64,000 nt of DNA from an uncultured Alphaproteobacteria bacterium (GTDB lineage Bacteria > Pseudomonadota > Alphaproteobacteria > Rs-D84): positions 97,698-161,697 of the forward strand of contig CALXMR010000001.1 in NCBI GenBank assembly GCA_944389525.1, written 5' to 3'. Below the pieces are notes generated by a model that had not been told where the DNA came from, searched no databases, and saw only the letters and a program-made list of their open reading frames with translations. Positions 1,134 through 57,311 of the stretch are shown here, in pieces. Every line of letters begins with the position of its first letter. Position 1 is the first letter of the stretch. Position numbers and translations under genes: made by a program.

Positions 1134-2912
1134 ATGAACTTGGGTGATTCTTGTTTTTTGTGTCTGGACATCGGCACACAGTGTGTGCGCGGGATTGCCC
1201 ATCATGTTTTATCAGGACGAATTGTACAATCTGCGGTGCACACGGTTGACAGTTTTGATACCGTGTTCGCATTAAAATCTGTAATTGATGAACTAGAACA
1301 TCAAATTGGTTCACACTTTGAATCTGCATACATAACGGGCAATTTTGGACAATCTGGGTTTGAAATGGTGGCCAAAAATACCGTATGGCGTGGTGAACAC
1401 AAAATCACTGCATCTGATATCCGCACCCAGATTGCACAAATCACCCCCCCAGACGGATTTTTTCCGATGCATGTGTTTCCGCTGCGATACGATACACCAA
1501 CGGCGCGCAACATGTTTTCGCCGATTGGGCATACTGATCGTCAACTGATATCTGCATTTGGTGCAATATTTTATGCATTTGCCGCAACAGATGAACTGAA
1601 CACAAAACTGCGCCATGCACATATCCAGCCAACCGCATTTTTCGATCCCCAGTTTTTACAAAACGCGACATTTCGTCAAAAGAAACAAACCGCGATGTTC
1701 ATCGATTTTGGTGCCGAATATACCAGCGCATCTATCTGGATGGATCGCGGACCGGTATGGCACACTAAACTGGCCATTGGCGCGACAGATATAATCACAG
1801 ACATATCGAAAAAACTGAACATCAATTTTGACGATGCGCACCGCATATACCGCAATGTTGCATGCATGCTGTCCAAAGAAATGGACAGATTTACCCCGGC
1901 CGATACCGAATACGATTTTTCACGCGCCGATGTAAATGATATAATTTTACCGCACATGGTTGATATTTGCGCCCAGATAAAATCTGCCTCTGCGGCGGCA
2001 ATGTCTAAATACAAGCCGTCTGTAATAAATATATCCGGTGGCGGCGCGGAAATAGATTCAATGAATGAATTTGTTGAAAATGTATTTGCCTTGCCTGTTA
2101 AAAATATTGGCGCGGATGCATCTGTACGGGCATTATCATCATATATCTGGGATACAGAATCCGAACATCGTAATAAATATATGGTGCGACATGAACGGAT
2201 AAACAACATTGGCACGCGCGTTTTTCGTATATTCCGCCGCCGCAATACCCAGCGTAAAAAATTTATCCCAATTATGCCCAGTACATTATGCTTTGACATG
2301 AAAAGCCCAATGACATATTCACTGTTCAATTCTGGTGACATATCGATGATACATGTTGATATAATGGACGGTTTTTATGTCGACAGAATTGCAGGCAGTA
2401 TCGCGGAATTAAAATACATCCGCGCCCACACGAATGCCCACTTGCATGTACACCTGATGACAGAAAGCCCGACCGTCTGGGCACATGATGCGATTGCGGC
2501 GGGTGCGGATACGGTTATTATGTCAACCAATACATCTGGATTGCGTGCGGCAATTCGCGCGGTGCGCGCGGCGGGTCGGCGGGCCGGCGTTGCATTAAAC
2601 CCAGAATCATCGGTCGCAATATTAAAACCGATTTTACGCGAAATTGATGAAGTAATGATAATGGCGGTCACACCTGGGGCGGCGGGCCAAGAATTCAATG
2701 ATGCATGCCTGCATAAAATATCGGTGCTGGCGGCGACACGCAAAAAATATGGATTAAAATATCTAATCTCTGTTGATGGTGGCATAAATGCCGATACAGC
2801 ACAAAAATGCTGGGCGGCGGGCGCAGATTTGCTGGTCAGTGGTTCATACCTGGCACACAGTAATGATTTTCCATTGGCGGTGCAAAGCCTGTTGCGCAAG
2901 ATAGAAAATTAA
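1134..2912 (+). CDS. FtsA-ribulose-5-phosphate 3-epimerase fusion
   Basis: One uninterrupted 592-codon frame holds two proteins. Residues 1-375 are FtsA, the actin-like membrane anchor of FtsZ: phosphate-1 motif LDIGTQ at 11-16, phosphate-2 motif FIDFGAEYTS at about 189-198, adenosine motif NISGGGAEI near 297-305, and a basic amphipathic stretch (RVFRIFRRRN) near 360-370 that resembles FtsA's C-terminal membrane-targeting helix. Residues 378-592 are a complete Rpe TIM barrel, the pentose phosphate enzyme interconverting ribulose-5-P and xylulose-5-P: PSTL, HVDIMDG (H407, D409, D412), HVHLM (H440), VTPGAAGQ, SVDGGIN (D548) and GADLLVSGSY. Metal ligands and both catalytic Asp are present. An in-frame ATG at 2274 could give free Rpe, but no clear Shine-Dalgarno precedes it. 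No ftsZ follows; the next genes run on the opposite strand. Confidence 0.88.
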   Translation: MNLGDSCFLCLDIGTQCVRGIAHHVLSGRIVQSAVHTVDSFDTVFALKSVIDELEHQIGSHFESAYITGNFGQSGFEMVAKNTVWRGEHKITASDIRTQIAQITPPDGFFPMHVFPLRYDTPTARNMFSPIGHTDRQLISAFGAIFYAFAATDELNTKLRHAHIQPTAFFDPQFLQNATFRQKKQTAMFIDFGAEYTSASIWMDRGPVWHTKLAIGATDIITDISKKLNINFDDAHRIYRNVACMLSKEMDRFTPADTEYDFSRADVNDIILPHMVDICAQIKSASAAAMSKYKPSVINISGGGAEIDSMNEFVENVFALPVKNIGADASVRALSSYIWDTESEHRNKYMVRHERINNIGTRVFRIFRRRNTQRKKFIPIMPSTLCFDMKSPMTYSLFNSGDISMIHVDIMDGFYVDRIAGSIAELKYIRAHTNAHLHVHLMTESPTVWAHDAIAAGADTVIMSTNTSGLRAAIRAVRAAGRRAGVALNPESSVAILKPILREIDEVMIMAVTPGAAGQEFNDACLHKISVLAATRKKYGLKYLISVDGGINADTAQKCWAAGADLLVSGSYLAHSNDFPLAVQSLLRKIEN

Positions 2913-12109: not shown

Positions 12110-12138
12110 TTGCAATCAAAGGTATGTTCAGTTAGAAT
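12110..12138 (+). promoter_or_regulatory. putative promoter of the barrel gene at 12385
   Basis: TTGCAA (12110-12115), a 17-nt spacer, and TAGAAT (12133-12138). Transcription would begin near 12145, giving a leader of about 240 nt that contains the structured RNA at 12150-12368. The rest of the gap 11966-12110 shows nothing I can assign. Confidence 0.5.
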
Positions 12139-12149
12139 TCAAATTGAAT

Positions 12150-12368
12150 CCATAGGGATATGGGTTCGGGGTCGTTCAAAACCCATAATTGCACGGTGTG
12201 AAAACATCGTTATCCGTTTTTGACAGCATAATGGTGTTTTTTACACTGTTTTGCCTGGCCTTTGGGTCGGGTGTCTGTGGCTATATAACAGGTTCGCCGA
12301 AATCCACAGGGTCATTGCAATTATGATTTTGAAAATACCCGACCGTCATTCCCGTGGCGGTCTTTTTG
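12150..12368 (+). promoter_or_regulatory. structured leader RNA with terminator (copy 1)
   Basis: Shared with 56489-56706. Helices: ATGGGTT/AACCCAT (12160-12186); ACGGTGT/ACACTGT (12193-12199 with 12243-12249) enclosing CATCGTTAT/ATAATGGTG (12205-12213 with 12228-12236); CCTGG/TCGGG (12254-12271); CTGTGG/CCACAG (12275-12280 with 12304-12309) enclosing the conserved loop ATATAACAGGTT. A short TCAT/ATGA hairpin follows, then an 8-bp terminator GACCGTCA/TGGCGGTC with TTTTT ending just before the ribosome binding site. Several helix pairs differ from the second copy by compensatory changes. This arrangement fits a transcription-attenuating riboswitch or protein-bound leader. I do not match it to a known class. 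Confidence 0.75.
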
Positions 12369-12384
12369 CATAAAGGGGTAAAAA

Positions 12385-13623
12385 ATGAAAAACACAAATA
12401 TTATCTTGTTCACATTTATTACATTGTATTTTTGTAATTCAGCATTTGCAATCAATCCGAAAATATCTGCATATAACGATACCATGTATTGTTTAGTTGA
12501 CCCCAAACATGCAAAAAATGGTGAACTAACCGCTCAATCAGACACATATTTTTTCTATAATCTAGAAACCTTGGATTTGGATATTACGTGGACAGAGTGG
12601 CTTGCAGACGGTTCTGGTGGCGAATACATTGCCCCGTACTCCCCAACAACCATTCATTACCAAAACGTCACTTTAAAAGATATTGCAAAAAATCCTGACT
12701 TAGTCTCTTTTTACGAAGGAACATCTACATTTTTACCATCTTTACAAAAACAAGCATCAGAATATTTCTCCCAAATCCTAAAAGAGAACTATGTTTTTAT
12801 AACGTCCGCCAAAACAAGAAATCTGTTTTATTCAAATATTAACCAAATAGATAACAGACTCCTAGAGCCCTATCATTCCGATTTAACTGTATGGGCAACA
12901 GAATCTTATAATTGGTTTAAGCAAAATAGCTATTCAGATTTCACAAGTTCTGCTTTTGGTTTACATATAGGCATGGACAAATACATTAAAAATAATTTGT
13001 TATTAGGTTTTAGTTACTCTTTTAGTGATGGAGAAACAACATATAAAAATAATCTCACACAAGACGATTCAATACACAATATCTATTTATATTCAATGTA
13101 TAATTTTAATAGTGTGTATCTAAGTTTATTATTTAATTATGGATTTTCACAGTATAAAAACATCGATAATTTCAGTGCATCAAATTTCGGAACTGTTATA
13201 AATATGGGCTATAAAACGCCACAAAATATTATAGCCGAAACAGGTTTGCGCTATCTGAATCTATTACCTGTTTCTTATAAAGATTCTATCGGTAATGAAA
13301 CATCTTTTGACTCTAATAATTTTTTAACATGGACAACTGGACTTAAATACACCATAAATTTAAATCCATTTTCTATAAAGATAAATTTTAACATTTTATA
13401 CGATATTTTATATGATAACGATGAAATAACAGTTTATTATAATACACATGACATTTTCGCAAATACAGCATTTAAATCATGGGATCCATTTGGTATAGAA
13501 ACAGGTCTTTCAGCACAAACAACTTTCAATAACGGAATAAGTTTGTCTATAGAATATTCATTAAGCGCACGACAAAATTTTCATAGCCACACAGGACTTA
13601 TCAAGATTGATTATAAATTTTAA
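12385..13623 (+). CDS. outer-membrane beta-barrel protein (autotransporter-barrel-like)
   Basis: A 412-residue exported protein. It has a Sec signal peptide (MKNTNIILFTFITLYFCNSA, cleavage near AFA at residue 23), a passenger-like region of about 150 residues, then roughly 230 residues of alternating amphipathic strands (for example LLLGFSYSFSDGETTY, YLSLLFNYGFSQY, SIKINFNILYDILYD) ending in IKIDYKF, a terminal aromatic as BAM substrates have. This resembles an autotransporter or Omp barrel domain. The AT-rich codon use matches the rest of the element. It is preceded by the structured leader, which it shares with the chromosomal barrel gene at 56727. A surface role of the element product is inference. 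Confidence 0.72.
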   Translation: MKNTNIILFTFITLYFCNSAFAINPKISAYNDTMYCLVDPKHAKNGELTAQSDTYFFYNLETLDLDITWTEWLADGSGGEYIAPYSPTTIHYQNVTLKDIAKNPDLVSFYEGTSTFLPSLQKQASEYFSQILKENYVFITSAKTRNLFYSNINQIDNRLLEPYHSDLTVWATESYNWFKQNSYSDFTSSAFGLHIGMDKYIKNNLLLGFSYSFSDGETTYKNNLTQDDSIHNIYLYSMYNFNSVYLSLLFNYGFSQYKNIDNFSASNFGTVINMGYKTPQNIIAETGLRYLNLLPVSYKDSIGNETSFDSNNFLTWTTGLKYTINLNPFSIKINFNILYDILYDNDEITVYYNTHDIFANTAFKSWDPFGIETGLSAQTTFNNGISLSIEYSLSARQNFHSHTGLIKIDYKF

Positions 13624-21050: not shown

Positions 21051-24090
<3,040 letters not shown>

Positions 24091-56334: not shown

Positions 56335-56488
56335 GCACGCGCATATCTTAGTATATGTTTTTGCGGATTTCCAGTATTAAATTCGTGGGATTTCAATCTT
56401 GTTGATATATAACTTATGTATGCGTATAGATGTAATATATAGATATACAACTACTTGTATTTGTGGATTTTTTCCTGCATAATAAATT

Positions 56489-56706
56489 CAGAGTCCACAG
56501 GTTGTGATTTCGGGACTGTGATAAGTCCATATCTGTTCGGTGCGAAAGCATCGTTATCTGGTGTAATGGTGTTTTTGCACCGTTATATCCCCGACATTGG
56601 GGCGGGGGCCGCTGGTATACAACAGGTTTTACCAAAGACAGCGGAATCATCTAACAGATATGATTTATCACCCCCCCCGACCGCCAATACTGTGGCGGTT
56701 TAACTT
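56489..56706 (+). promoter_or_regulatory. structured leader RNA with terminator (copy 2)
   Basis: Counterpart of 12150-12368. Helices: GGACT/AGTCC (56513-56528); CGGTGC/GCACCG (56538-56543 with 56577-56582) enclosing CATCGTTA/TAATGGTG (56549-56556 with 56564-56571); CCCCG/CGGGG (56589-56607); CCGCTG/CAGCGG (56609-56614 with 56639-56644) around ATACAACAGGTT; AATCAT/ATGATT; and a terminator-like GACCGCCA/TGGCGGTT with a T-rich tail just before the ribosome site. The helix sequences differ from copy 1 while pairing is kept, whereas loop words such as AACAGGTT and CATCGTTA are identical. 56335-56488 is AT-rich with no gene and must hold the promoter. Confidence 0.75.
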
Positions 56707-56726
56707 TTTTTATAAAAGGAAAAAAT

Positions 56727-57311
56727 ATGAAAAAAATAATTCCTGTTGCACTATGTGCATTATTGCCTGCAAGTGTCTTTGCCACAGAAACGCCAGCCAG
56801 CACAACCAATATATTTGATAACACCAGATTCTTTATGGAATATGGCGCATCAATATTTTCCAGTGCCGGGACAAAAACAAAATTGGACAGTCAAACACTG
56901 TCAGACATTGATACAACATCAATCAATTCTGGCACATCGCTGTCTGTTGGTGCTGATTTTGATGGGATTCAACTGGCCTTTACCCCATCTTATTCAGATC
57001 AAGAAGACACATCTATTTTTGATTTGGGATTAAAATTGGATATTCCGTTTATGGACACTAAATTACAACCATATATTTCATTATCTGCTGGTATCGGATT
57101 TATCAGTATTGATTCATTAGATGTTGATAATGAAATTGGTCTTGGCTATGGCATTGGTGCCGGTGTAAAGTACACATTTAATGACAATATGTATGTCAAG
57201 ATTGGTCTGGAATATTCTGGCGCATCATTCAGTGTCGATGTATATGGATATGACGCAGATATGGACATATCTGGATTCAGTTTGACAACCGGTCTGGGGT
57301 ACAGATTTTAA
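56727..57311 (+). CDS. small outer-membrane beta-barrel protein
   Basis: A 194-residue exported protein with a signal peptide (MKKIIPVALCALLPASVFAT) and an eight-strand-type barrel like OmpA/Omp25/OmpW families: alternating strands such as SLSVGADFDGIQLAFTPSY, LQPYISLSAGIGFISI, YGIGAGVKYTFNDNMYVKIGLEYSGASFSV, ending GLGYRF with terminal Phe for BAM recognition. Preceded by a good ribosome site (AAAAGGAAAAAAT) and by the same leader RNA as the element-borne barrel gene. Function unknown; porin or adhesion-type surface protein are options. Confidence 0.8.
   Translation: MKKIIPVALCALLPASVFATETPASTTNIFDNTRFFMEYGASIFSSAGTKTKLDSQTLSDIDTTSINSGTSLSVGADFDGIQLAFTPSYSDQEDTSIFDLGLKLDIPFMDTKLQPYISLSAGIGFISIDSLDVDNEIGLGYGIGAGVKYTFNDNMYVKIGLEYSGASFSVDVYGYDADMDISGFSLTTGLGYRF

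Follow-up and report, generated by a model that had tools for sequence, protein, structure and literature searches.

Candidate transcription-attenuating leader RNAs related to sRNA-Xcc1 upstream of accessory genes in Alphaproteobacteria

Results

Two structured RNA leaders, A and B, lie in the 64,000-nt stretch of alphaproteobacterial DNA analyzed here (the window), each in front of a gene for an outer membrane barrel protein. All features described below are on the plus strand unless indicated otherwise. Leader A extends from its first helix, P1, to the end of the terminator U-run (12146..12367) and scores 184.9 bits against the covariance model R1 described below; leader B (56491..56712) scores 164.3 bits. 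The two are homologous and can be aligned end to end over ~220 nt each. An initial annotation of this DNA had proposed two structured, homologous leaders at 12150-12368 and 56489-56706, and both are present; the extents were roughly correct, with P1 starting at 12146 and 56491 and the RNAs being slightly larger than annotated.

Both leaders are preceded by sigma-70-like promoters. In the promoter of leader A (12110..12138; −35 TTGCAA, 17-nt spacer, −10 TAGAAT), the boxes are conserved across 112 elements; the promoter of leader B (56455..56483; TTGTAT, 17 nt, CATAAT) was read by eye at the expected position and is absent from the consensus-scan list. P1 begins ~7 nt after the end of the −10 box. 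Because the −35 and −10 boxes of the 112 elements are found at constant positions of approximately −36 and −13 relative to P1, the transcript very likely starts at P1. At the opposite end, the consensus scan identified an intrinsic-terminator-like hairpin with a U-run in leader A (12342..12367; hairpin, 12342-12361) and a similar hairpin with a U-rich tail in leader B (56680..56712; hairpin, 56680-56699), i.e., two terminator-like sites per leader region compared with 0.2 to 0.4 expected. In 87% of the copies, at least four U residues are located within 8 nt 3′ of this hairpin. As previously annotated, the hairpins are right before the start codons (12385 and 56727), and, judged by sequence, a putative intrinsic terminator separates leader and gene. 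Leader A is followed by the Shine-Dalgarno sequence AAGGGG (12373..12378) and a gene for a 412-aa autotransporter-type barrel protein (12385..13623; PF03797, 41 bits), while leader B is followed by a gene for a 194-aa OMP beta-barrel protein (56727..57311; OMP_b-brl PF13505, 34.8 bits), consistent with the annotation of both products as exported barrel proteins.

Using BLASTN and nhmmer, we identified ~50 relatives in the genus, 43 of which were used to build R1. R1 copies are present in 87 of 96 genomes of the genus, reaching at least 24 copies per ~1-Mb genome. The genome containing the window has seven clear copies and a weak eighth, compared with the two leaders annotated initially. Copies were also found in every other searched genus of the family and in family f4, and none were found in families f2, f3, f5, and f6 of the order; class-wide, copies are scattered (26 of 289 genomes). 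The contig titles of relatives indicate rumen and gut Alphaproteobacteria MAGs. Genomes of the genus without a copy (G009, G030, G065, G070, G076, G100, G103, G112, and G115) suggest that either the whole system was lost in some species or copies were missed. The f4 copies (L171-L200) are divergent, number up to 26 per genome, and in many cases precede genes for short secreted cysteine-containing proteins.

The start codon is located at most 45 nt from the element in 105 of 112 cases (median, 21 nt), and 106 of 112 have a Shine-Dalgarno sequence. The ~100 nonredundant products encoded downstream are diverse and accessory. They include surface- and glycan-related proteins (OMP barrels, autotransporters, glycosyltransferases, RgpF, and Stealth), many short exported or lipoprotein-like proteins, DNA-related proteins (EcoRI, Eco57I, type I and type III DNA methyltransferases, Mrr, and UvrD-like), ankyrin proteins, and regulators. 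The association is thus not specific for barrel genes, in contrast to what the two leaders in the window had suggested. Distant copies also precede genes for exported and outer-membrane-like proteins, as assigned by sequence reading. The position of 105 of 112 elements close to the start codons of such diverse accessory genes argues that the RNA is a cis-acting leader; the downstream gene content points to no ligand.

The consensus structure was evaluated on 102 sequences, of which 101 are distinct. In this fold, 96.6% of cells are paired, and 44 of 57 pairs have changes on both sides. Tested in an R-scape-like manner against a tree-based null, 14 column pairs were significant, each with at least 91% standard pairs, and the observed covariation was reached by none of 500 shuffles. 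The covariation is overwhelming and corroborates the proposal of a conserved structured leader. From 5′ to 3′, the fold consists of P1, P2a with a loop pseudoknot (PK1), the long helix P2, P3, P3b, P4, P5 with P5a, and the terminator T. In leader A, the 5′-terminal hairpin P1 (12146..12167) is followed by the P2a hairpin (12169..12184), in which loop nucleotides 12176-12178 pair with 12330-12332 to form PK1; PK1 is paired in 99.7% and uses all four pair types. The 5′ strand of P2 (12184..12193) pairs with 12316-12325. P4 (12253..12272) is 97.1% paired, and P5 (12275..12309) contains the conserved internal loop TATATAACAGG...GAAA. The corresponding elements of leader B are P1 (56491..56511), the P2a hairpin with the PK1 partner as its loop (56513..56528), the P2 5′ strand (56529..56537; partner, 56653-56661), and P4 together with the PK2 5′ strand (56589..56608; PK2 partner, ~56671-56682; −18.5 kcal/mol).

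Of the helices proposed initially, CTGTGG/CCACAG is P5, and CCTGG/TCGGG is P4; the latter, however, is excluded when the long-range pseudoknot PK2 forms. The CGGTGT/ACACTG helix fits the alignment but competes with local hairpins, namely, CGGUGC-GAAA-GCAUCG and GGUG..CACC; in leader A, P3 is the hairpin CGGTGT-GAAA-ACATCG (12194..12209), and its alternative partner is at 12243-12248. Both rival pairings fit ~96 to 98% of cells, and the local hairpins have more double changes. Three interactions had been missed altogether: PK1, PK2, and a complementarity of the P1 hairpin to the terminator loop.

PK2 is a second pseudoknot, in which GUCGGGGAG, the 3′ strand of P4, pairs with CUCCCCGAC, overlapping the base of T. 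In leader A, GGTCGGGTGT (12265..12274) pairs with ATACCCGACC (12335-12344; −19.3 kcal/mol). The PK2 flanks covary at positions +1 to +3 (z scores of 8.5, 7.2, and 7.2), and the covariation ends at +4; the 43 double-change cells of PK2 were matched in 0 of 500 shuffles. PK2 was also recovered independently in distant sequences (z = −5.7), and column 258 has both P4 and PK2 pairing partners. P4 and PK2 are thus mutually exclusive yet both conserved, which is the mark of a switch. The energies are near balance, with −20.9 kcal/mol for PK2 versus −13.0 kcal/mol for P4 plus −10.4 kcal/mol for T. PK2 overlaps the terminator stem by two bases only, and a shortened terminator hairpin could survive PK2 formation.

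In leader A, the 5′ strand and loop of P1 (12150-12159) show complementarity to nucleotides 12348-12357 in the terminator loop and 3′ strand (−9.6 kcal/mol), and in leader B, CCACAG of P1 (56495-56500) is complementary to CTGTGG of the terminator (56690-56695; −9.8 kcal/mol). Across the family, complementarity between these segments is far higher within than between elements (z = −11), while the controls are flat (z = 0.7 and −0.3). The signal persists after thinning (z = −7.1) and in distant sequences that were not used in model building (z = −7.0). A candidate pairing of the P1 3′ strand with the terminator 5′ strand was dropped (z = 0.7).

At the Rfam gathering threshold, the window contains only tRNAs, and neither leader matches an Rfam riboswitch. 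Below the threshold, a stretch of leader B (56599..56686) aligns to RF02221, sRNA-Xcc1 (25.2 bits; gathering cut-off, 53 bits), and copy C3 in the same genome reaches 31.4 bits (E = 5.7e-4), also short of the cut-off. In a phylum-wide search, R1 matched L216 (E = 4e-9), which Rfam places in RF02221 with 69.9 bits. In the reverse direction, model R2, built from RF02221 loci only, found its best match within the window in leader A (12182-12346; 18.3 bits, E = 5.7e-4) and gave 37.8 bits with intermediates; leader B was not recovered by R2 in the window search. A further R2 match (22455-22559; 14.6 bits) is located within predicted ORFs and is probably a chance match. Homology is, therefore, detectable in both directions with the full-length models R1 and R2. 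These comparisons identify the window leaders as divergent, full-length relatives of sRNA-Xcc1, with a 3′ domain that is a sub-threshold relative of RF02221. The RNA had initially been presented as a candidate new structured RNA that could not be placed in a known family; with a core from the sRNA-Xcc1 superfamily, it is not categorically new.

The Rfam model covers an 87-nt 3′ half alone, whereas the window leaders are full length. A P2a hairpin was identified 5′ of the region modeled by Rfam in 25 of the fetched RF02221 loci; the P2 5′ strand and P3 come next, and a start codon lies shortly downstream in nearly all loci. RF02221 loci and the window family share P2a with the PK1 loop, P2, P3, P5 with the AAUACAA internal loop, the PK2 closing strands, and the position directly before a start codon; the window family has both the PK2-type closing helix and P5 with the AUACAA/GAAA internal loop expected of RF02221. 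The RF02221 leaders (L217-L246 and L247-L251) appear to be ~160 to 200 nt long and precede SymE-like and phage antirepressor genes, gene classes that were assigned by sequence reading. They occur in Xanthomonas and in integron, phage, and plasmid loci, including phages Aaphi23 (ant), Rac-SA53 (ant), and 4316 (KilA-N) and plasmids of P. aeruginosa (BRO) and Providencia (Rha).

The two groups differ in other features. The P1-terminator pair of the window family is absent from the fetched RF02221 loci. Instead, the Shine-Dalgarno region of RF02221 loci repeats words of the PK1 loop and the P2 5′ strand, which implies translational control by strand swapping. In these loci, the 3′ strands show complementarity with both the 5′ half (z = −10.4) and the Shine-Dalgarno region (z = −9.3; after thinning, −5.2 versus −2.1 for the control). 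The control region, 70 to 120 nt downstream, itself deviates from zero (z = −2.6), and part of the −9.3, therefore, reflects relatedness or base composition. A Shine-Dalgarno copy was also sought in the alphaproteobacterial version (the f1 set) and was dropped (z = +1.3).

Discussion

We suggest that each leader is probably a cis-acting transcription attenuator of the gene behind it, with the PK2-containing core as the ON state. RNA polymerase would start at P1, and the RNA would fold into a pseudoknotted core composed of P2a (with its loop in PK1), the long P2, P3, and P5 with its internal loop. In the OFF state, the 9-nt CUCCCCGAC just 5′ of the terminator would remain unpaired, P4 and the terminator hairpin would form, and transcription would stop. 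In the ON state, CUCCCCGAC would pair with GUCGGGGAG as PK2, opening P4 and taking the base of the terminator; in addition, P1 could capture the terminator loop and 3′ strand by means of its own loop and 5′ strand, allowing read-through. Because PK2 and P1 capture would both permit read-through, the folded core, probably stabilized by a ligand or a protein, would turn the gene ON. The computations establish the structure, the exclusive pairings, the location as a leader, and the homology, and the activity of the terminator, the ON/OFF direction, and the sensing of a signal are what we infer.

The strongest competing idea, which we consider unlikely, has the opposite polarity: P1 and the terminator would form a kissing contact that stabilizes the terminator, and the folded core would be OFF. 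Both hairpins can retain their stems when their complementary loops of ~6 nt pair. Moreover, the P1-T duplex (approximately −10.4 kcal/mol) is matched by the terminator by itself (−10.4 kcal/mol); mutual pairing is thus likely less stable than the P1 and terminator hairpins together, and the contact may be a kissing loop and not an antiterminator. However, PK2 competes with the terminator, and a clear hairpin is missing from the 3′ segment of L179 and of some f4 copies although this segment is complementary to the P1 5′ strand, which fits strand capture. Several f4 relatives have a degenerate terminator or none, and termination cannot, therefore, be the sole output there.

The favored attenuator model must also be weighed against the published view of sRNA-Xcc1 as a trans-acting sRNA with a proposed link to virulence. 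The RNA was cloned, detected at ~100 nt on Northern blots, and mapped by RACE to 88 nt (PMC2996969), and a trans-acting small RNA gene would, as here, have its own promoter and terminator. In that case, the location before start codons would be incidental, which is improbable given that the 105 proximal copies, equipped with Shine-Dalgarno sequences, precede ~100 unrelated genes, that genomes contain many differing copies, and that RF02221 loci are also directly before symE, ant, KilA-N, BRO, and rha. An article from 2025 likewise places sRNA-Xcc1 in front of symE within integron cassettes (PMC12444791). We infer that the 88-nt sRNA-Xcc1 is the 3′ half of a cis-acting 5′ leader.

A constitutive 5′ UTR that stabilizes the mRNA and has no regulatory role would account for a 5′-terminal hairpin at the presumed transcription start; it would, however, leave the conserved, exclusive P4/PK2 pairings and the terminator-like hairpin before the Shine-Dalgarno sequence without a purpose, making this explanation very unlikely. 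Least probable is a small mobile element with terminal inverted repeats, as hinted at by the many copies per genome, the repeat-like P1 and terminator, and the location upstream of accessory genes, since the end sequences vary among copies while each keeps its own complementarity, the distance to the start codon is constant, compensatory changes are extensive, the alphaproteobacterial copies had no match in phage or plasmid collections in nucleotide searches, and a 20-base core pattern had no match in viral contigs.

Transcription-attenuating riboswitches, such as the purine, SAM, and cobalamin classes, combine pseudoknots or kissing loops with a terminator expression platform. The attenuator proposed here resembles them in both respects, but its genes are unrelated and accessory and do not belong to a single pathway. 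The put and EAR antitermination RNAs are structured leaders of surface-polysaccharide or mobile genes and act on later terminators. The window family is similar in being a structured leader of such genes; by contrast, its conserved unit includes the terminator. The direct comparison with put and EAR covered the Rfam scan.

In the RF02221 relatives, the same core would have another output, with the Shine-Dalgarno sequence being freed or hidden. We tentatively raise the possibility, which we hold less firmly than the attenuator model, that one ancient core detects a common signal in the cell and, throughout the Proteobacteria, regulates recently acquired genes by two outputs. If so, phage antirepressors and SymE would be controlled via a hidden Shine-Dalgarno sequence and surface and DNA-modification genes via termination, and the accessory genome would have this RNA as its common gatekeeper. 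The question of sensing can be addressed in well-studied hosts by way of their phage and plasmid loci. For an RNA that is represented in Rfam as an 87-nt "sRNA," our analysis provides the full fold, the gene context, and a likely mode of switching; the proposal of a virulence-linked trans-acting RNA is reinterpreted as part of a cis-acting leader. The literature that we searched contains no description of the full architecture, the leader role, the alternative outputs, or the large expansion. In one uncultured family of gut bacteria, this expansion marks surface, glycan, and DNA-modification genes.

Two individual copies have unusual arrangements. In L205, the copy (1501-1742, minus strand) is head-to-head with a permuted alphaproteobacterial tmRNA gene (1837-2399, plus strand). 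In L210, a tandem second half element resembling PK2/P5 (GGGGAGATCGTAGCGTATGTTCAGAGGG...CTCCCCGGCC) is located 3′ of the first.
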